NCBI RefSeq assembly: GCF_015352955.1
Contig: NZ_JACYOX010000003.1
Location: forward strand, 248,001 to 312,000
Length of the DNA: 64,000 bases
Origin: Noviherbaspirillum soli
Lineage (GTDB): Bacteria > Pseudomonadota > Gammaproteobacteria > Burkholderiales > Burkholderiaceae_D
Direction: 5' to 3'
Below, piece by piece: positions 32,211 to 45,145 of this stretch; the first letter of the stretch is position 1, and every line of letters starts with the position of its first letter. A program made the translations under genes and the position numbers. The notes beneath the pieces are model-generated. The model had not been told where the DNA came from. It did no database searches and saw only the letters and a list, made by a program, of their open reading frames with translations.

Positions 32211-34469
32211 ATGCCGTCCCAGTCGCTTCGTCTCTCGCTGCGTTTCCTGCTGCCGCTGGCGCTCGTGCTCGTGCTGTTCGCCTACGCGGCCGTGCCCCTC
32301 ACCGAAAAACTGACAGTGCGCTGGTTCGTGCGCGACCTCGACATCCGGTCGCAACTGCTGGCCAGCGCGCTGGAAGAGCCCTTGCTGGGCTATCTGCCGC
32401 AAAAGGCGCGCAGGCAGATCAACCAGCTGTTCGACCGCGCCATCCGCGATGAACGGCTTTATGCGCTGGGGCTGTGCGACGCCGCCGGCAGCCTGCTGTA
32501 CAAGACGGCAACCTTTCCCGCATCGATTCCCTGCAGCCGTCCGGCCCAGGGCAAGGCCGGCAGTGAAAACAGGGCGATGCTGCGCCTGCCGCAGGGCGCC
32601 GTCCATGTATCCGGGAGCGACCTGATGCAGGACGGCGTGCTCGTGGGCAGGCTGCTGCTGGTGCATGACATGAGCTTTATCGAGCGGCGCAGCGCCGATA
32701 CCCGCAAATACGTCTTCACCATGTTCGCGCTGCTCGCCCTGGTGATTGCGGTGCTGACGGTGGTCATCGCCCAGTTGAGCTGGCGCGGCTGGGTCAATGG
32801 CGTGCGCAGCCTCTTGCGCGGCGAGTTGCTGCTGCGCGCGCCCGCCGCTGGCGCGCCGGCGGAAATGCAGCCGCTCATTGGCGACCTGCGCAACCTGCTG
32901 CACGAGTACCAGCGCGACCGCCAGCAGGATGGCGGCGCCCAGGTGTCGGCGCCGGACAAGCTGCGCGCCTTGCTGCAGAATGAACTGGCCGGCGACGAGG
33001 TGCTGGTGGTGTCCAACCGCGAGCCGTACATCCATGTCGACACGCCTGAAGGCGTCGAGGTGCGGCGGCCGGCGAGCGGCCTGGTGACCGCGGTGGAAGC
33101 GGTGATGCGGGCCTGTTCGGGCACCTGGATCGCGCATGGCGCCGGCAGCGCCGACCGCCAGACCGTGGACAAGCACGACCGGGTGCAGGTGCCGCCGGGT
33201 GATCCGAGCTACACCCTGCGGCGGGTCTGGCTGAGCAAGGAGGAGGAGCAGGGCTATTACTACGGCTTCGCCAACGAGGGGCTGTGGCCGCTGTGCCATA
33301 TCGCCCATGTGCGGCCGGTGTTCCGTTTCACCGACTGGGAACAGTATGTGGCCGTGAACCGGCGCTTTGCCGACGCGGTGGTGAAGGAGGCGCGCACCAG
33401 CAATCCGGTGGTGCTGGTGCAGGACTATCATTTCGCGCTGCTGCCGCGGCTGGTGAGGGAACGGCTGCCGGAGGCAACCATCATCACTTTCTGGCACATA
33501 CCCTGGCCCAACGCCGAGTCCTTCGGCATCTGCCCTTGGCGCACCCAGATCCTCGAAGGCATGCTGGGCAGCACCATCCTCGGTTTTCACACGCCGCTGC
33601 ATCGCAAGAATTTCCTGGACACGGTGGACCGCTACCTGGAAGCCCGGATCGAGAACGAGGCGTCCACGGTGTCTTATGGCGGCAAGCTGACCCAGGTGGA
33701 GAATTACCCGATCTCGATTGCCTGGCCGGACCAGCCCGGGCCGGACGGACAGGACGTGGCGCAATGCCGCGCCTCGATACGCCATGCGCTTGGCCTGTCG
33801 CCGGGACATCTTCTGGGCATAGGCGTGGACCGGCTGGATTACACCAAGGGCATACCGGAGCGTTTCCAGGCGGTGGAGCGCATGCTTGAACTGCATCCGG
33901 AAATGGTGGGGAGGGTTACGCTGGTCCAGATCGCCGCGCCGAGCCGTTCCAGCCTGGACGAGTACCAGAATTTCGAGGCCAGGGTGCGGCAGCTGACGCA
34001 GCGCATCAACCAGCGTTTCGGCAGCGGCAGCTACCAGCCCATCATCCTCAAGGCCGAGCATCATGAACAGCACGAGGTCAACCGCTATTACCGCGCCGCC
34101 GATGTCTGCATGGTGACCAGCCTGCACGACGGCATGAACCTGGTCGCCAAGGAATACATCGCGGCGCGCGATGATGAACAGGGTGCGCTGATCCTGAGCC
34201 AATTCACCGGCGCGGCAATGGAACTGCATGCGGCGCTGATCGTCAATCCCTACCACATCGAACAAAGTGCCGGGGCCCTGCACCAGGCGCTGACGATGCC
34301 GGCGGCCGAGCAGAAGGCGCGCATGCGCAGCATGCGCACGCTGGTGCGCGACTTCAATGTCTATCGCTGGGCCGGCCGCATGCTGCTCGATGCCGCCCGC
34401 CTGCGCCAGCGCCAGCGGGTCATGTCCAGCATTCACGCCCACGGCGGCCGGTCCGCGCGCATCGACTGA
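32211..34469 (+). CDS. Membrane-anchored GT20 (trehalose-6-phosphate synthase-like) with sensor-like N-terminus
   Basis: A 752-residue protein. Residues about 10-32 and 167-192 are membrane helices ([34 protein letters not shown]) enclosing a periplasmic region of about 135 residues, then a HAMP-like/linker segment (193-255). The rest is a GT20 domain: [78 protein letters not shown] and [11 protein letters not shown]. OtsA uses UDP- or GDP-glucose and glucose-6-phosphate. Some positions differ from OtsA (VQDYHF for VHDYHL; SLHDGMN for PLRDGMN), so the product may not be trehalose phosphate. No otsB-like phosphatase is adjacent. It follows mscS with GGAG at its start. Confidence 0.85.
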
Positions 34470-34470
34470 T

Positions 34471-34923
34471 TCAGGGCGGCGCATTCGCCGCCGGCTCCCG
34501 CGGGCAGCGGGAAAAACGCAGCATGCTGCCTTGCCGCGCCGGCCGGTTGTTCTGCCGCAGATAGCGGTTCTGCACGTCGTAGGCCTGCTCCTCGCTTTGC
34601 AGCACCGCGGTGCAGGAAGTAAAGCCGGCGCTGCCGGTCTGCTTGAACTGCAGCACATGGACCATTTCATGCACGAGGAAGGAAGCGTCCACCGGATCGT
34701 CGAAGTCGAGCTTGTCGTCGGCGACGATGCGGTAGCGCTGGGTGTCGAAGGCCGCGATCAGCCCGGCGCAGCGCACCGGCGCGCTGCTGCAGACGGTCTT
34801 GTTGAGTTCGGCGCGCGGCAGCAGCACCACCGGCGGCAGTTCGCTGACATGGATGCCAGGCAGCCCGGACAGCTGTATTGCCACGCTGAGAAGCTGGGTC
34901 AGGAGTTGCTGGGTGGGATCCAT
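34471..34923 (-). CDS. Putative HExxH zinc-metallopeptidase-like protein
   Basis: A 150-residue protein with a zincin-like motif FLVHEMVHVLQFKQTG near residue 91, in which H-E-x-x-H would bind zinc. Two cysteines flank it. The N-terminal half (QLLSVAIQLSGLPGIHVSEL) is amphipathic. ATG 34923 is used; an ATG at 34938 and a longer frame to 35067 exist but cross an intergenic segment. The gene is convergent with the GT20 gene, one base apart. It resembles short, uncharacterised bacterial proteins with an HExxH core, and proteolysis is unproven. Confidence 0.62.
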   Translation of the reverse strand: MDPTQQLLTQLLSVAIQLSGLPGIHVSELPPVVLLPRAELNKTVCSSAPVRCAGLIAAFDTQRYRIVADDKLDFDDPVDASFLVHEMVHVLQFKQTGSAGFTSCTAVLQSEEQAYDVQNRYLRQNNRPARQGSMLRFSRCPREPAANAPP

Positions 34924-35113
34924 GGCTGTTCCCGGCATGAGGGGAGGGTCCATGCAATGTAGACCAGAAACGCGGTTTTCACACGCACCGCAGCGATGGC
35001 ATGATGGTCCAGTCAAGCCTGCATGCCGCGGCAGCCGGCCGCCGCAAGGATGGCGCGGACCTTGCATGGTATTTCGCGCCGGCCGTCATGCCGGCATTCC
35101 AGGGGGAAAATGC

Positions 35114-35482
35114 ATGAAGGCACTCATCTTCGCTGTCACCACAATGACCGCATCGCTGATCCCTGCGCCGCCGGCCCAGGCTCAATCCGGCGAGCCGACC
35201 GAGTCCGACATCCTGGCGCTGGCCGAGCGCGACGTGGCCCGCGCCAACTTGCCCATCGTCGAATACCACCAGCGCCTTGGCAAGGGAGATGTGCCGCCGG
35301 ACATGCTGGTGAAGCTGCATGCGGCGCGCAAGAAGGGCTGCCAGCCAGCCACCGAAGCGCAGGCATGGGAATGCACGGTGCAGATGGAAATGACCGTGCC
35401 CAACGGCGGCTTCCGGTCCAGCACGGTGCTGCTGCGCATCGCCAGGAAGGGCGATGGCTGGGCGGCTAGCCGCTTGCGCTGA
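35114..35482 (+). CDS. Small exported protein of unknown function
   Basis: A 122-residue protein with signal peptide MKALIFAVTTMTASLIPAPP, cleavage near AQAQS. The mature part holds ESDILALAERDVARANLPIV, then VKLHAARKKGCQPATEAQAW and ECTVQMEMTVPNGGF, with two cysteines that could form a disulfide, and ends in a beta-rich segment (STVLLRIARKGDGW). An AGGGGG site precedes ATG 35114. The last 17 bases overlap the end of cbbZ on the other strand. I do not recognise the family. Confidence 0.7.
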   Translation: MKALIFAVTTMTASLIPAPPAQAQSGEPTESDILALAERDVARANLPIVEYHQRLGKGDVPPDMLVKLHAARKKGCQPATEAQAWECTVQMEMTVPNGGFRSSTVLLRIARKGDGWAASRLR

Positions 35483-36167
35483 CCGCGGCCCCAGCCTGTC
35501 CCAGCAAGGCTGGCAATTCGTCGAGCGCGTCGATGTAGCCGTTGCAGGGCGCCGCATCCGGCGCGGCGGCATTGCGATAGCCGTAGCGCACCAGGTACAC
35601 CGGCATGCCGGCCCGGTCCGCCGCGCTGGCGTCGACGCCCGAGTCGCCCACCATCACGCATTGCGCGGGCTGCACGCCGAGACGACTGCAGGCAGCCAGC
35701 AACAGCGCCGGGTGAGGCTTGAGCGGCAGCGCAGGCTCGCCGCAGGCTACCGTGTCGAAGCAGGGCGACAGGCCCAGCGCATCGAGCAGCGGCTCGGTGT
35801 AGGGGCGCGGCTTGTTGGTCACGCAGGCCAGCGCATAGCCCAGCCCGCGCAGCATGGCCAGGCCTTGCTGCACGCCAGCAAAAACGGTGCTGTGGCGGCC
35901 GTTGCAATCGATGTAGTGACGCTCGAAGATGGCAAGGGCGCCGGCTTCATCCGCTGGCCCGACGCCCGGCGCATGGGCCAGCACCTGGCGCACCAGATGG
36001 GCCACGCCCCAGCCAATGAAGCTGCGCACCGTCTGCAGCGGCAACGGCGGCGCGCCCAGCTGCGCCAGCATCCGGTTTGCTGCCGCAGCGATATCGGGCA
36101 CGCTGTCCACCATGGTGCCGTCCAGATCGACCAGCACGGCCCGCGGCCGCTTCGCGGTGGCAACCAT
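35466..36167 (-). CDS. cbbZ: Phosphoglycolate phosphatase, last gene of the cbb operon
   Basis: A 233-residue HAD hydrolase that removes 2-phosphoglycolate formed by the oxygenase activity of RuBisCO. Motif I is VLVDLDGTMVDSVPD (nucleophile Asp in D-x-D-G-T), motif II CVTNKPRPYTEPLL, motif III K in PLKPHPALLLAA and motif IV MVGDSGVDASAADRAGM. ATG 36167 lies one base after the cbbT stop. The operon ends here: the G, K and A genes that follow cbbZ in Cupriavidus necator are absent, and a plus-strand gene overlaps its 3' end by 17 bases. Confidence 0.92.
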   Translation of the reverse strand: MVATAKRPRAVLVDLDGTMVDSVPDIAAAANRMLAQLGAPPLPLQTVRSFIGWGVAHLVRQVLAHAPGVGPADEAGALAIFERHYIDCNGRHSTVFAGVQQGLAMLRGLGYALACVTNKPRPYTEPLLDALGLSPCFDTVACGEPALPLKPHPALLLAACSRLGVQPAQCVMVGDSGVDASAADRAGMPVYLVRYGYRNAAAPDAAPCNGYIDALDELPALLGQAGAAVSASG

Positions 36168-36168
36168 C

Positions 36169-38172
36169 TCAGGCTTCCAGCAGGGCCTGGGCGCTGGCGG
36201 CTATGTCGGCCGGCGTCAGCTTGAAATAGCCGTACAACTCGCCGGCCGGCGCCGATTCGCCGAAACGGTCGATGCCCAGCGCCAGGCCGCTGTCGCCCAC
36301 CACGGAGCGCCAGAGCCAGGTGACGCCGGCCTCGACGCTCAGCCGCGGCACGCCGGGCGGCAGCACGCCATCGCGCCAGTCGGCCGGCTGCGCAAGGAAC
36401 AGTTCGACGCAGGGCATGGACACCAGGCGCACCCGATGGCCCTTGTCCCGCAGCTGCGCCGCGGCCTCGGCGGCGATCCCGACTTCCGAGCCGGTGGCGA
36501 TCAGCACCAGTTGCGGCCTGTCGCAGTCCTGCAGCACGTAGCCGCCACGCGCGATGCCGGCGATCTGTGCCTCGTCGCGGGCAAAGGGCTGCAGCGCCTG
36601 CCGTGACAGGGCCAGGCAGGTCGGTCCATCATCGCGCCGGATCGCGGCTCGCCAGGCGGCAGCCGTCTCGACGCCGTCGCACGGTCGCCAGACGCGGTTG
36701 CCCGGGATCAGGCGCAGCGTGGCCAGATGCTCGACCGGCTGATGGGTCGGGCCGTCCTCGCCCAGGCCGATCGAGTCATGGGTCAGCACATGGATCACCC
36801 GCTGCTTCATCAGCGCCGCCATGCGAATCGCATTGCGCGAGTAGTCCGAGAAGGTCAGGAAGGTGCCGCCGTAGGGGATGAATCCGCGGTACAGCGCCAT
36901 GCCGTTCATCATCGCCGCCATGCCGAATTCCCGCACGCCATAGCTCAGGTAATTGCCCGCGCCGTGATCGTTGACCCTGACCGACGCCGGCACATTGGTC
37001 AGGTTGGAGCCGGTCAGGTCGGCCGAGCCGCCGAACAGTTCCGGCAGCAGCGGGCTGATGGCTTCCAGCACCAGCTGGGAAGCCTTGCGGGTTGCAAGCT
37101 TCTTTCCCAGTTCGGCGTTGTTGGCCAGCAGCGCATCGAAGCAATCGTCGATGCCTTCAGGCAGTTCGCCACGGAGGCGCCGCAGCAGTTCGGCCGCCAG
37201 CGCGCCATGCTGCGCCTGGTAAGCCGCGAACCGTTCATTCCACTGCGCTTCCAGCGCGGCGCCGCGGGCGCGGCCATCCCAGGCGTCGGCCAGTTCCTGC
37301 GGAATGGCGAAGGGCGGATGCGGCCAGCCGCCAAAATCGCGCATTGCCCGGATTTCCTGCGGCCCGAGCGGCGCGCCATGCACATCGTGGCCGCCGGCCT
37401 TGCCCGGCGCGCCGTGGCCTATCGTGGTCTTGCAGCAGATCAGCGTTGGCGCGTCCCGCTGCGCCCTGGCCGCATGCAGCGCGGCATCGATGGCCGCGGC
37501 ATCATGGCCGTCGACATCCGCGATCACATGCCAGCCATAGGCGCGAAACCGCTGCGGCGTGTCGTCGGTGAACCAGCCGGCCACGTCGCCGTCGATGGAA
37601 ATGCCGTTGTCGTCATACAGCGCGATCAGCTTGTGCAGCTTCAGCGTGCCGGCCAGCGAGCAGGCTTCATGGCTGATGCCTTCCATCAGGCAGCCGTCGC
37701 CCAGGAACACATAGGTATGGTTGTCGATCAGCTCGAAGCCCGGCCGGTTGAACTGCGCGGCCAGCATTTTTTCCGCCAGCGCCATGCCGACCGCATTGGC
37801 CAGGCCCTGGCCGAGCGGCCCGGTGGTGGTCTCCACGCCGGGCGTGACGCCGTGCTCCGGATGGCCGGGCGTTCTTGAATGCATCTGGCGGAAGCGCCTG
37901 ATCTCCTGCATCGGCAGGTCATAGCCGGACAGGTGCAGCAGCGCATACAGCAGCATCGATGCATGGCCGTTGGAGAGCAAGAAGCGATCGCGTCCCGGCC
38001 AATGCGGATTGGCCGGGTTGTGCCGCAGGTGGCGGCGCCACAGCACTTCGGCGATGTCGGCCATGCCCAGTGGCGCGCCGGGATGGCCCGAGGCTGCCTG
38101 TTCAACCGCGTCGGCGGCCAGGAAGCGGATGGCGTCGGCCGCGTTGGCGGCCACTTTGTCGGGTGCGTTCAT
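36169..38172 (-). CDS. cbbT: Transketolase
   Basis: A 667-residue transketolase moving two-carbon ketol units in the regenerative phase of the Calvin cycle. Visible features: [18 protein letters not shown] at the N-terminus, [18 protein letters not shown], the thiamine-diphosphate motif [13 protein letters not shown] then [12 protein letters not shown] near residue 155-190, and [20 protein letters not shown] in the pyrimidine domain. Length is normal for bacterial transketolases. It lies between cbbP (9 bases upstream) and cbbZ. Confidence 0.95.
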
Positions 38173-38181
38173 TGCGGTCTC

Positions 38182-39066
38182 CTAGAGCTGGCTCATCGCG
38201 CGCTTCTTGCGTTCCATCATGCGCCAGATGAAGGGGGTGAAGATCAGCTGCATCGCCAGTTCCATCTTCCCGCCCGGCACCACGATGGTGTTGGCCCGCG
38301 ACATGAAGGAATCCCTGACCATGTTGAGCAGGTACTGGAAATCGATGCCCTTGGGATTGGCGAATCGGATCACCACGAAGCTCTCGTCCGGCGCCGGGAT
38401 GTCGCGCGCAATGAATGGGTTGGAGGTGTCCACGCACGGCACCCGCTGGAAGTTCACATGGGTATGCGTGAATTGCGGGCAGATGTAATTCACATAGTCC
38501 GGCATGCGGCGCAGGATGGTGTCGGTTACCGCTTCGGTCGAGTAGCCGCGCTTGGACTTGTCGCGCCACAGCTTCTGTATCCATTCGAGGTTGATCACCG
38601 GCACCACGCCGATCAGCAGGTCCGGATGCCTGGCGATGTCGATATCCCCATGCACCACCGCGCCGTGCAGGCCTTCATAGAACAGCAGGTCGGTGCCGCG
38701 CTCGATGTCTTCCCAGGGCGTGAAGGTGCCGGGCTTCTGCTCGTAGGGCGCAGCCTCCCCGGCGTCATGCAGGTATTTGCGGCGGCGGCCGGTGCCGCTT
38801 TCACCGTAGCTGCGGAACAGGCCCTCGAGTTCGGCGAACAGGTTGGTGTCCGGTCCGAAATGGCTGAAGTTGCGGTCGCCGCTTCTTTCCGCCTCGATCT
38901 GCCTTTCCTTCATCTCCTCGCGGTTGTAGCGGTGGAAGCTGTCGCCCTCGATGATGGCGGCGCTGAGGTTCTCGCGCCGGAAGATGTTCTCGAAGGTGCG
39001 GGTCACCGAAGTGGTGCCGGCGCCGGAGGAGCCGGTGATGGCAATGATGGGATAGCGTTCTGACAT
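38182..39066 (-). CDS. cbbP: Phosphoribulokinase
   Basis: A 294-residue class I (proteobacterial, octameric) phosphoribulokinase that makes ribulose-1,5-bisphosphate. The N-terminus MSERYPIIAITGSSGAGTTS carries the P-loop, and DSFHRYNREEMKERQ supplies catalytic residues. LFYEGLHGAVVHGDID and VPGGKMELAMQLIFTPF agree with the family. Its length, about 290, distinguishes it from the longer cyanobacterial/plant form. Translation begins at ATG 39066, 17 bases downstream of cbbF. Confidence 0.96.
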   Translation of the reverse strand: MSERYPIIAITGSSGAGTTSVTRTFENIFRRENLSAAIIEGDSFHRYNREEMKERQIEAERSGDRNFSHFGPDTNLFAELEGLFRSYGESGTGRRRKYLHDAGEAAPYEQKPGTFTPWEDIERGTDLLFYEGLHGAVVHGDIDIARHPDLLIGVVPVINLEWIQKLWRDKSKRGYSTEAVTDTILRRMPDYVNYICPQFTHTHVNFQRVPCVDTSNPFIARDIPAPDESFVVIRFANPKGIDFQYLLNMVRDSFMSRANTIVVPGGKMELAMQLIFTPFIWRMMERKKRAMSQL

Positions 39067-39083: not shown

Positions 39084-40157
39084 TCAGGCGGGGGTGCGGA
39101 ACAGGCTGCGCTCGCAGAACAGCGGCTCGGGCAGCTCCATTGGCGGCGGCGCGTTGTGATAGCGCTCGATCAGCTCGACCTCGTGGCGCGAGCCGAAGAT
39201 CAGGCCGACCCGCTGGTGCAGCGAGGAGGGCGCCACATCCATCACCGGCTGGCGGCCGGTGCTGGCGCGGCCGCCAGCCTGCTCGATCACGAAGCCGATC
39301 GGATTGGCTTCATACAGCAGCCGCAGCCGGCCGGGCATGCGGCTGTCCTTGCTGTCGCGCGGATAGAGGAAGACGCCGCCGCGCATCAGGATGCGGTGCG
39401 CCTCGGCCACCATGGAGGCGATCCAGCGCATGTTGAAGTCGCGGCCGCGGCTGCCGGTCCGTCCGGCCATGCATTCATTCACATAGCGCTTCACCGGCTC
39501 TTCCCAGAAACGGCTGTTGGAGGCGTTGATCGCGAATTCGCTGGTGTCGGCCGGCACGCACAGGCGCGGATGGGTCAGCATGAACTCGCCCAGCTGCGGG
39601 CAGAGCGTGAAGCCGTTCACGCCATTGCCCACGGTCAGCACCAGCATCGTGGTCGGGCCGTAGATCGCATAGCCGGCCGCCACCTGCCGGGCGCCGGGCT
39701 GGAGGAAGTCGCGCTCTGTCACGGGCTGTTCCGTTTCCGGCGCACGCAGCACCGAAAATATGCTCCCGACCGATACATTCACGTCAATGTTCGACGAGCC
39801 GTCCAGCGGGTCGAACAGCAGCAGATAGCGGCCCTTCGGGTAGCAGTCCGGAATCTGGTAGGGCTCGTCCATTTCCTCGGATGCCATGCCGGCCAGGTAG
39901 CCGCCCCAGTTGTTGCCTTCGATGAACAGGGCGTTGCTGATCAGGTCCAGCTTCTGCTGGGACTCGCCCTGCACATTGACCGCGCCGGCGCCGCCGAGCA
40001 CGCCGCCCAGCGCGCCGGCGGCGACCTTGCGGGCGATGCGCTTGCAGCACAGCGCGACATTGAGCAGCAGGCTGTTGAAGTCGCCGCTGGCGCCGGGAAA
40101 GCGGCGCCGTTCCTCGATCAGGAACTGGGTCAGGGTGATGCGCATGTCCGGGTTCAT
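39084..40157 (-). CDS. cbbF: Fructose-1,6-bisphosphatase, class I
   Basis: A 357-residue class I fructose-1,6-bisphosphatase; in cbb operons this enzyme usually also hydrolyses sedoheptulose-1,7-bisphosphate. The metal and phosphate motif [19 protein letters not shown] is at about residues 118-136, [17 protein letters not shown] and [12 protein letters not shown] (near residue 278) are also typical. I start at ATG 40157 ([13 protein letters not shown]) with AGGAGACAG upstream. The open frame extends to 40214, but those 19 codons lie in the cbbE scar. The ATG overlaps the TGA ending that scar (ATGA). Confidence 0.94.
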
Positions 40158-40396
40158 CGTCTGTCTCCTGTTGTCGTTTTCTGTCGGGCAAGCGCCTGCC
40201 GCCATAACCGCCATCCTCGTCCGGCGCGGCAGCCGTATTCACGAACCATGCCCAGTGTCCGGCCCACATGCCGGCTGGCTTCCGGATGGAAGGTGATGAC
40301 GTCGGCCCCGGCCGCCTCGATGGCCCGCACTTCCTTGCCCGGACGGGCGAAGTCGGCCGGCAGGGTGGAGGACGCAATGCGCATCGCGGCGCCCAT
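40154..40396 (-). pseudogene. cbbE: Ribulose-phosphate 3-epimerase remnant with internal deletion
   Basis: Eighty codons between cbbY and cbbF, where cbbE lies in Cupriavidus-type operons. The start reads MGAAMRIASSTLPADFARPG, the degenerate N-terminus of the epimerase (normally ...IAPSILSADFARLGEE), up to EAAGADVI. The frame then runs directly into [20 protein letters not shown] and GCRAG, a segment that in intact enzymes lies about 60 residues further on. The metal-binding H-F-D-V-M-D centre is missing, and after GCRAG an unrelated 21-residue tail leads to the TGA overlapping cbbF. Less than half the enzyme remains, and the TIM barrel cannot form. The frame is nevertheless open, with TGA-G-ATG and ATGA junctions on either side. 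Confidence 0.88.
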
Positions 40397-40397
40397 C

Positions 40398-41159
40398 TCA
40401 GCTGGCCTCGAACAGGGTGCCTTCATGCCAGCGCGTCAGCGCCGCCAGGTCGACCCAGCGATGCTCGGCGCCGGGGATGCGCCGTTCCAGCGGATGCGCC
40501 GGATCGCCGAGATGCGGCAGCACCAGCAGCGCGTCGCTGAAGGAATGCAGCACGGTGCAGGCGGTGGGCGTGATGATGGCCGGGATGCCGGCTGCGCTGG
40601 CGGCGGCGAGGCCGTTCGCGGAATCCTCGAAGGCAATGCAGGCATAGCCCGGCAGGCGCAGCGCATGCAGCGCGGCGAGATACACGTCCGGCGCGGGTTT
40701 TTTGCGCTGCGTGGTGCCGGCATCGCAAACCGCGGCAAACAGACGGCGCCAGTTGCGGCCCAGCGGCTCGCGCAGCAGCGCGTCCACATTGGACGGCGTG
40801 GTGGTGGTGGCGATCGCCATCGGCAGGCCGGCCTCGGCCGCCTCGGTGATCAGGCGCTCGATGCCGGGACGCAGCGGCAGCCTCCCGCCGCTGACCTGCG
40901 CTTCATAGATCCGGGTCTTGATGGCGTGGATGCGGTTGATCGTCTCGCCGCTTTTCGCGGCGTGCAGCGGGTCCACGCTGCGCCAGTAATGCGCGATGCG
41001 CTCCTTGCCGCCGGCCACGTCGAGCAGCCTGGTGTACAGCGTTTCCGACCAGTTCCAGTCCAGGCCGGCCTCGGCAAACGCGGCATTGAAGGCGGCGCGG
41101 TGCGCGCTTTCGGTGTCGGCGAGCGTGCCGTCCACGTCGAAGATCAGGGCTTGCAGCAT
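40398..41159 (-). CDS. cbbY: HAD-family sugar phosphatase, CbbY (xylulose-1,5-bisphosphate phosphatase)
   Basis: A 253-residue HAD protein with [20 protein letters not shown] (nucleophile D8, acid D10), [30 protein letters not shown] (motif III Lys) and [16 protein letters not shown] (motif IV). CbbY removes xylulose-1,5-bisphosphate, a RuBisCO inhibitor. The ATG at 41159 has AGGAG and overlaps the end of cbbX by 16 bases. The stop is one base before the first codon of the cbbE remnant. Confidence 0.92.
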
Positions 41160-42109
41160 GATGGCTCCTGTGCGCTTTGCGGCGACTCGGGGTTGTCTGC
41201 AAACACCCGGCTGGCCAGCAGGTCGGGCGCGGTGATGGTGACGAGCGCCTCGTCGTCGACGTCGCCGCCTGCGGCCAGCAGGCGCGATGCATGGCGCAGC
41301 CTGGCGCGGTCCAGCGCATTGCGCACGCTGCGGGCGTTGGCGAAATGCGGCATCGTCATGCGCCGCTCTAGGTACTGGCGGAACACTTCCCCGGCCCGGT
41401 CGTCGAAGCGGTACTGCATGTCCTTCAACATCAGCTGCGCGATGCGCTCCAGTTCGCCGGCGCCGTAGTCCGGGAAGTCGATGTGGTGGGCAATGCGCGA
41501 GGACATGCCGGGGTTGGACTCGAAGAAACGGTCCATCCTGTCCTTGTAGCCGGCCAGGATCACCACCAGGTCGTCGCGCTGGTTCTCCATGATCTGCAGC
41601 AGGATCTCGATCGCTTCCTGGCCATAGTCGCGCTCGTTTTCCGGCCGGTACAGGTAATACGCCTCGTCGATGAACAGCACGCCGCCCATGGCCTTCTTCA
41701 GCACCTCGCGGGTCTTGGGCGCGGTGTGGCCGATGTACTGTCCCACCAGGTCGTCGCGGGTGACCGCCACCAGGTGGCCGCGCCGCACATAGCCGAGCCG
41801 GTGCAGGATCTGCGCCATGCGCATGGCCACCGTGGTCTTGCCGGTGCCGGGATTGCCGGTGAAGCACATGTGCAGGCTGGGCGGCGAAGCCGACAGGCCG
41901 CGGTCCTGGCGCAGCCGGTCCACCAGCAGCAGCGCGGCGATATCGCGGATGCGCGACTTCACCGGCGCCAGTCCCACCAGCTCGCGTTCCAGCTGGGCCA
42001 GCAGGTCGGCGATGCCGGAAGCGGCCAGCGCCGATTTCAGGGAGCCGGCGCCGGCGACATGCGCCTGTGCCGGCTTGTGATGCTCCAGGGGCGTGTCGAT
42101 CACGGTCAT
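41144..42109 (-). CDS. cbbX: Red-type RuBisCO activase
   Basis: A 321-residue AAA+ protein. Walker A is [17 protein letters not shown] near residue 85 and Walker [22 protein letters not shown] near residue 145 (split by the strand turn). The pore-loop area is [18 protein letters not shown]. CbbX remodels red-type RuBisCO to remove inhibitory sugar phosphates, pulling on the extended C-terminus of CbbL. It fits the form IC enzyme encoded upstream. ATG 42109 is used ([12 protein letters not shown]); the open frame to 42196 overlaps cbbS and is discounted. Confidence 0.95.
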
Positions 42110-42122
42110 GATGCCTCCCGGC

Positions 42123-42545
42123 CTATTGATAGCGCATGCCTTCCGGCTGCGACTGGGTGGCATAGCTCTCGATGCTGTAGCGCATCGAGCGACCATTGAT
42201 CTCCTGCCGCACCAGCCGGAAGCCGGGCTCCTGCGGCGGCCGCTGGACGATAAAGGACAGCACCACGCTTTCCACCGTATGGGTGGAGTCGAAGGCGGTG
42301 ACGCGGATGTAATGAGCGGGATAGGTCTTGCGGCAGCTGTTCAACTCCAGCATGATGCCGGCCGCGTCCCGCAGGTCGAACATCGGGTTGCCGAACATTT
42401 CCCAATAGACGTTGCGCGGATGCGGGTCGTCGGTGTACTCGATGCCGACCGCCCAGCCCTTGTCCAGGCAATAGTCGAGCTGCTTGATGATCTGCTCGTC
42501 GGATAGATCGGGCAGGAAGGAGAAGGTGCCTTGAGTGATGCGCAT
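42123..42545 (-). CDS. cbbS: RuBisCO small subunit, form I red type
   Basis: A 140-residue small subunit. [20 protein letters not shown] begins the family pattern, followed by [19 protein letters not shown] and [20 protein letters not shown]. Its extended C-terminus ([20 protein letters not shown]) is the beta-hairpin extension characteristic of red-type (form IC/ID) small subunits. It lies 44 bases downstream of cbbL and 13 bases before cbbX. Confidence 0.95.
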
Positions 42546-42589
42546 GATGTCCTCTTTCGTTGGGTTGCTGGCGCTGTGCAGTGCGTGGT

Positions 42590-44188
<1,599 letters not shown>

Positions 44189-44233: not shown

Positions 44234-45145
44234 ATGCGCCGCTATACCCTGAGACAACTCGACACCTTCATGGAAGTCGCCCGCAGCGAATCGGTCTCGC
44301 GCGCTGCCGACCGCCTGCATGTGACGCAGCCGGCGGTATCGATGCAGTTGCGCCAGCTTGAGGAAAGCCTGGGCCTGCCCTTGCTGGAAGTCATCGGCCG
44401 CCGGGTGCGGCTGACCGATGCCGGGCGCGAGGTGGAGCGCTGCGCGGCTGCCGCCCTGGCGCGCCTGAAGGAGCTGGACGATCTGGTGGCCGCCCAGCGC
44501 GGCTTAAAGCATGGCAAGGTCGATCTTGCGGTGGTCAGCACCACCAAGTACTTCATGCCGATGCTGCTGATGCGGTTTCGCAAGCAGTTTCCCGACATCG
44601 CGATCACGCTGCAGATTCATAACCGGGAAAGCATGATGAAGCTGCTGGCGCGCAATGAAATCGACCTGGTGATCATGGGACGGGCGCCGCAGGGGCTGGA
44701 CTGCTGCTCCACCGAGTTCGCCACGAATCCGATGGGCGTGGTGTGCGCGCCCGACCATCCGCTGTCGCGCCGGCGCGGCGCATCAATGTCGGCGCTTGAC
44801 GGCCAGGACTTCGTGGTTCGGGAGCAGGGGTCGGGCACCCGCAGCACGATGGAAGCGGTTTTTGCCGAGCATGGCGTCACGCCGCGGGTGGTGATGGAGA
44901 TGCCCAGCAATGAGACCATCAAGCAGGCGGTGATGGCCGGCATGGGCATGGCATTCCTGTCGCTGCGCACGGTGCGTCATGAGCTGGCATCGGGTCACCT
45001 GGTTTTGCTCGACATCGCCGGGCTGCCGGTGATAAGGCAGTGGTATGTGACCCACCTTGGCGCACGGCGGCTGTCGCCTGCGGCCGAGGCGCTGAAGAAT
45101 TTTCTGATGGAGGAGGCGGCGGCGCTGGTGAAGGTCTGGGCATGA
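44234..45145 (+). CDS. cbbR: LysR-type activator of the cbb operon
   Basis: A 303-residue LysR regulator encoded divergently from cbbL, as CbbR is in other autotrophic proteobacteria. The helix-turn-helix is TLRQLDTFMEVARSESVSRA, then AADRLHVTQPAVSMQLRQLE (residues about 5-44). The effector domain has KVDLAVVSTTKYFMPMLLMR and VREQGSGTRSTMEAVFAEHG, which in CbbR forms the metabolite pocket. Known CbbR proteins respond to NADPH, RuBP or phosphoenolpyruvate; which applies here is not visible. Confidence 0.93.
   Translation: MRRYTLRQLDTFMEVARSESVSRAADRLHVTQPAVSMQLRQLEESLGLPLLEVIGRRVRLTDAGREVERCAAAALARLKELDDLVAAQRGLKHGKVDLAVVSTTKYFMPMLLMRFRKQFPDIAITLQIHNRESMMKLLARNEIDLVIMGRAPQGLDCCSTEFATNPMGVVCAPDHPLSRRRGASMSALDGQDFVVREQGSGTRSTMEAVFAEHGVTPRVVMEMPSNETIKQAVMAGMGMAFLSLRTVRHELASGHLVLLDIAGLPVIRQWYVTHLGARRLSPAAEALKNFLMEEAAALVKVWA

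Follow-up and report, generated by a model that had tools for sequence, protein, structure and literature searches.

Pseudogenes can form by deletion between short direct repeats through slipped mispairing. The locus described here, between cbbY and cbbF in a Calvin-cycle operon of Noviherbaspirillum soli, resembles pseudogenes of that origin in having a 12-bp repeat at its first lesion and microhomologies at two others, and does not differ from them in principle. Its closest counterparts are operons with an intact CbbE (PF00834), as in G002, a genome of the same genus, and in Massilia psychrophila JCM 30813 (L043). Position, start and retained pieces are common to the gene in these operons and to the remnant that we find. 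However, the remnant is a net 485 bp shorter, its catalytic motifs are gone, it is partly out of frame and its stop codon is lost. Other cbbY-cbbF operons (for example those of G003, Cupriavidus basilensis GW210010_S58, and Undibacterium and Comamonas MAGs) likewise have no working cbbE in this slot but, unlike the window (the whole stretch of 64,000 nucleotides that was analysed), they show no clear remnant there and have spacers of at most 117 bp.

The feature under study is an 80-codon open frame at 40154–40396 on the reverse strand, which Pfam, phmmer and an alignment with G002 identify as the readable remnant of a gene with 230 codons in that relative. It is, with high confidence, a cbbE pseudogene, formed by repeat-associated deletions and with its loss presumably permitted by a second epimerase gene. 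An intact ortholog occupies the same place in G002, and the lesions are disabling. We regard it as a well-explained case of routine gene decay, observed before the gene has fully gone. In the titles and abstract openings listed for cbb genes and on slipped misalignment (including PMC2942843, PMC8591527 and PMC9636797) we found no cbbE pseudogene, which does not imply that none is in print.

The 80-codon frame and its intact counterpart

The frame matches the Pfam family Ribul_P_3_epim (PF00834) in two stretches (1.5e-8; 34.7 bits against a cut-off of 21.1). Its best phmmer match among solved structures is the epimerase chain 5umf_A (1.3e-17), again in two pieces, with query residues 4–43 matching chain residues 11–50 and query residues 23–59 matching chain residues 85–121. 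Because the two pieces skip the stretch between them, ~55 residues are missing from the frame. Of the 16 structure sequences that this search listed with E values no higher than 1, four belong to other proteins (two PRDM9 chains, a designed barrel and a ribosomal protein); three of the four have no individually passing stretch and the fourth has one, and we take them for composition matches. The epimerase similarity on both sides of an internal junction that the initial annotation had described is thus borne out. Ahead of a frameshift, 56–58 of the 80 codons are in register with CbbE. At this length, the remnant is predicted to fall short of a full (beta/alpha)8 barrel of about 220–230 residues. 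Furthermore, five motifs of intact CbbE are all missing, and all of them fall in deleted parts. We presume the catalytic and metal-binding residues to be those of His-x-Asp, the His of VHLM and the Asp of VDGG, and the motifs around them are among these five. Judged from these features, the remnant is predicted not to be a working epimerase.

The genus is represented by four genomes in our collection: the source genome (G000), G001, G002 and G003. In G002, an intact cbbE of 230 codons lies between cbbY and cbbF and has its start in common with the window. The initial annotation had proposed aligning the junction with an intact cbbE of a relative, and this comparison resolved the lesions at base level. 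Against G002 DNA, the slot in the window shows deletions of 165, 290, 22 and 9 bp and one extra base, giving the net loss of 485 bp; each deletion end can be placed only to within the number of bases common to both sides. The 165-bp deletion is in-frame and falls on a 12-bp direct repeat of the G002 gene whose spacing is exactly 165 bp, as expected from the earlier proposal of recombination between short repeats. Its approximate junction (40305–40318, reverse strand) lies between the retained 5' end of cbbE (40316–40396, reverse strand; 27 codons, 11 of which depart from the G002 codon, with a changed residue in 7) and the retained middle (40225–40315, reverse strand; about 30 codons, ...HPEASRHV...GCR). 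In intact G002 cbbE, AGA-type motifs are present at both joined places, where the initial annotation had put motifs of A-G-A-D type. The 12-bp repeat is the longest among seven exact repeat pairs of at least 9 bp in that gene. The longest repeat reached at least 12 bp in 39 of 300 codon shuffles, so such a repeat alone is not rare; the telling point is that the 165-bp deletion coincides with the longest repeat, not the repeat length as such.

The retained 3' end of cbbE consists of two pieces (40184–40224, reverse strand), bounded upstream by the 290-bp deletion and interrupted near 40201/40202 by the 22-bp one. Microhomologies of 4 bp and 5 bp are found at the 290-bp and 22-bp deletions, respectively, and the ends of both are ambiguous by 4–5 bp. 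Combined, these two deletions restore the reading frame. The last lesion takes out the cbbE stop codon, and the frame continues via the former cbbE-cbbF spacer (40158–40183, reverse strand), which by eye contains a Shine-Dalgarno-like AGGAG also seen in G002, to a TGA in the first bases of cbbF. The tail of the frame, compared with G002 DNA, is the end of cbbE, ~7 codons out of frame and then in frame, followed by the spacer. The initial annotation had taken this tail for unrelated sequence; it is instead cbbE's own 3' end and spacer, because with the stop lost the frame reads through. A second deletion, which it had invoked to remove the C-terminal half, does exist in that half, but part of the C-terminal end survives.

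The surrounding operon and a second epimerase gene

The remnant lies in an operon of the Burkholderiales type, with cbbR divergent from cbbLSXY(E)FPTZ and the same order in G002. We named cbbF, R, L, S, X, P, T and Z by Pfam, and cbbY by similarity and position. On the reverse strand, cbbL (42590–44053), cbbS (42123–42548), cbbX (41144–42115; AAA+ family, presumably the Rubisco activase) and cbbY (40398–41159) precede the remnant, which is followed by cbbF (fructose-bisphosphatase; 39084–40157), whose own first bases, ATGA, overlap the TGA of the remnant, and by cbbP (phosphoribulokinase; 38182–39066), cbbT (transketolase; 36169–38172) and cbbZ (HAD family, which we take to be phosphoglycolate phosphatase; 35466–36167). 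The LysR-type regulator gene cbbR (44234–45145) is on the forward strand. All nine neighbours are intact: aligned to G002, eight are covered completely and cbbT in 665 of 667 codons (99–100% coverage), with dN/dS values of 0.048–0.213, in agreement with the earlier description of an otherwise intact operon. The neighbouring cbb genes are under purifying selection and are probably functional.

Beyond cbbZ, the window contains a 198-codon frame (34471–35067, reverse strand) with no Pfam match at 0.01. The product of 32211–34469 (forward strand) has a glycosyltransferase family 20 domain of the trehalose-phosphate synthase type at residues 263–727, preceded by an N-terminal extension of ~260 residues that has no Pfam match and, by eye, a hydrophobic stretch at its start.

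A search of the source genome found a single epimerase match, a full-length gene on another contig (G000:C33:3127–3717; 4.7e-92). By the same count, G002 has two epimerase matches, and G003 and G001 have one each. The protein encoded at G000:C33 belongs to the same family as intact G002 CbbE and is about 66% identical to it; in contrast to the remnant, it is full length, and it is the presumed supplier of epimerase activity. The rpe elsewhere in the genome that the initial annotation had called for is therefore present, and we infer that the cell relies on this Rpe and that it serves the Calvin cycle.

Signs of decay and rival explanations

Of the retained positions, 36 reach a conservation of 95% or above across a further 40 intact CbbE proteins. 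The window carries a different residue at six of these 36, and G002 at none (Fisher p 0.025). Over 56 codons, dN/dS against G002 is 0.44 in the remnant, compared with the lower range given above for the nine neighbouring genes (cbbR, L, S, X, Y, F, P, T and Z). A value below 1 is expected, because half of the path is the constrained branch of G002, but 0.44 does not prove neutrality. Base differences in residue-changing versus silent codons number 14:7 in the remnant versus 11:43 in cbbF (p 0.0003), whereas the difference from cbbY (40:48) is not significant (p 0.09). This pattern points to relaxed selection on the remnant, with the modest power that 56 codons allow.

We propose that cbbE was redundant with the rpe elsewhere in the genome, so that its loss would have been tolerated. 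The alignment shows the 165-bp in-frame deletion at the 12-bp direct repeat, the 290- and 22-bp deletions at the 4–5 bp microhomologies, a small lesion that took out the stop codon, and conserved residues replaced in the retained parts. The Rpe of the other locus would supply the Calvin cycle, and we take the readable 80-codon frame to be a by-product of the few stops in two frames of this sequence, not a selected product.

Nevertheless, no stop interrupts the frame between the former cbbE start and cbbF, an observation that might be read as constraint and so as counter to a pseudogene. The remnant might have been selected as a carrier frame whose translation delivers ribosomes to cbbF and averts polarity within the operon; its open frame and the overlap of its TGA with the cbbF ATG would fit such a role, and the initial annotation had likewise seen selection behind the TGA-G-ATG and ATGA junctions. 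However, among the matches listed, the cbbE stop lies 9–183 bp ahead of cbbF in every one of the 45 cbbE-bearing loci (41 distinct), measured to the projected start of the cbbF match and not to an annotated start, and cbbE and cbbF overlap in none of them. In G002, too, cbbF begins with ATGA, and because these bases belong to cbbF itself, any frame arriving in that phase stops there. The TGA-N-ATG at the end of cbbY is also found in G002 and is thus inherited, and cbbF retains the same AGGAG ahead of it. We also simulated deletions, with the G002 gene as the sole start and with lesion placement that ignores repeats. When the same lesions were placed randomly, 68% of 20,000 draws were open to cbbF; two random deletions of 50–300 bp left 49% open, with 24% ending on ATGA, and four of 5–300 bp left 70% open, with 15% ending on ATGA. 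One of the alternative frames of the G002 slot has a single stop and the other has ten. Because random deletions often leave an open frame (49–70% of draws), the one observed here is no sign of selection. Moreover, conserved positions drift in the remnant, and the 30 other cbbE-less operons among the matches listed manage with spacers of at most 117 bp and no detectable remnant. Selection for translational coupling is thus not supported by the junction comparison and the deletion simulation, and we consider a selected carrier improbable. We would give similarly little credence to the more general idea that decay inside operons passes via coupled carrier frames, which would protect cbbFPTZ from polarity before the clean spacers of the relatives are reached.

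Part of an intact cbbE could also have been cut out by a sequencing or assembly artefact, given that the genome is assembled to draft level, in 105 contigs, and that repeats can collapse. However, several separate lesions and conserved-site substitutions occur within 240 bp flanked by intact genes, and even on its shorter side the 321-kb contig extends about 33 kb past the slot, which makes an artefact very unlikely. Least credible of all, and barely plausible, is a small functional protein derived from CbbE. The open frame would suit it, but the remnant has no catalytic motif, retains the fold in parts only, has one piece out of frame and shows relaxed substitutions, and no second operon with such a remnant was found among the 31 spacers scanned.

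The cbbE slot among related operons

We classified 102 loci, comprising 22 of the 30 loci of the family search (L013–L034; the eight weaker cbbY matches, L035–L042, were left out) and 80 named loci, the best by CbbF similarity of a longer list. Among these matches listed, cbbY is followed by cbbF in 76 loci, 14 are without one of the genes and 12 have another order. In 45 of these 76 the two genes enclose cbbE, and in 31, among them the window, they do not, so that the initial annotation was right about its usual position for the larger group and not for the remainder. After removal of four duplicate loci, the CbbF tree has 72 rows (41 with cbbE and 31 without). On this tree, the presence of cbbE among the matches listed requires 13 changes, with 8 of them forced by starred branches and 11–14 over bootstrap trees, and the tree does not separate loss from gain. 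The window groups with G002 as its sister (100/96), and G003 branches next to them (100/94); in G001 we found no close cbbY (best match 4.8e-7).

Protein and DNA profiles of intact cbbE, run against the 31 cbbE-less spacers, exceeded the inclusion threshold only in the window, and we saw this scar in no other locus classified from the matches listed. In G003 (L015), cbbY is directly ahead of cbbF with a 51-bp spacer, and its first 13 bp, right after the cbbY stop, are identical to the EASR codons of G002 cbbE. Such an identity was reached by 6 of 5000 base shuffles, for one of 28 spacers longer than 10 bp that were compared. This suggests that the G003 spacer may be a deletion product as well. 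The intact gene of G002, the decaying one of the window and the short spacer of G003 form a small natural series of a gene leaving its operon. The remnant appears to represent a midway stage of a recurring change, in which the operon copy of an enzyme vanishes where a second copy exists and the pathway-specific genes stay, and operon cbbE is not a safe marker for the Calvin cycle in these bacteria. In the 25 named cbbE-less operons among the matches listed, no cbbE or rpe match that would indicate a moved gene was found in flanks reaching up to ~6 kb on either side; for the short unnamed loci, the flanks extend to 1.5 kb.

We also scored cbbT, omitting 15 contig-end rows and 14 short loci of the 72 tree rows. 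Among the 43 operons scored from the matches listed, cbbT lies behind cbbP in 23 of 23 with cbbE versus 8 of 20 without (Fisher 8e-6). However, a joint loss of cbbE and cbbT was not significant in a tree-aware test with 5 independent pairs on starred branches (median p 0.5). The cbbE-less operons that also have no cbbT behind cbbP (12 of the 20 scored) include that of G003 (L124; G003:C2:78000–92000). In the Rubrivivax loci L099, L102, L105, L106, L115 and L121, an rpe-like gene is flanked by cbbL and cbbX instead of by cbbY and cbbF.
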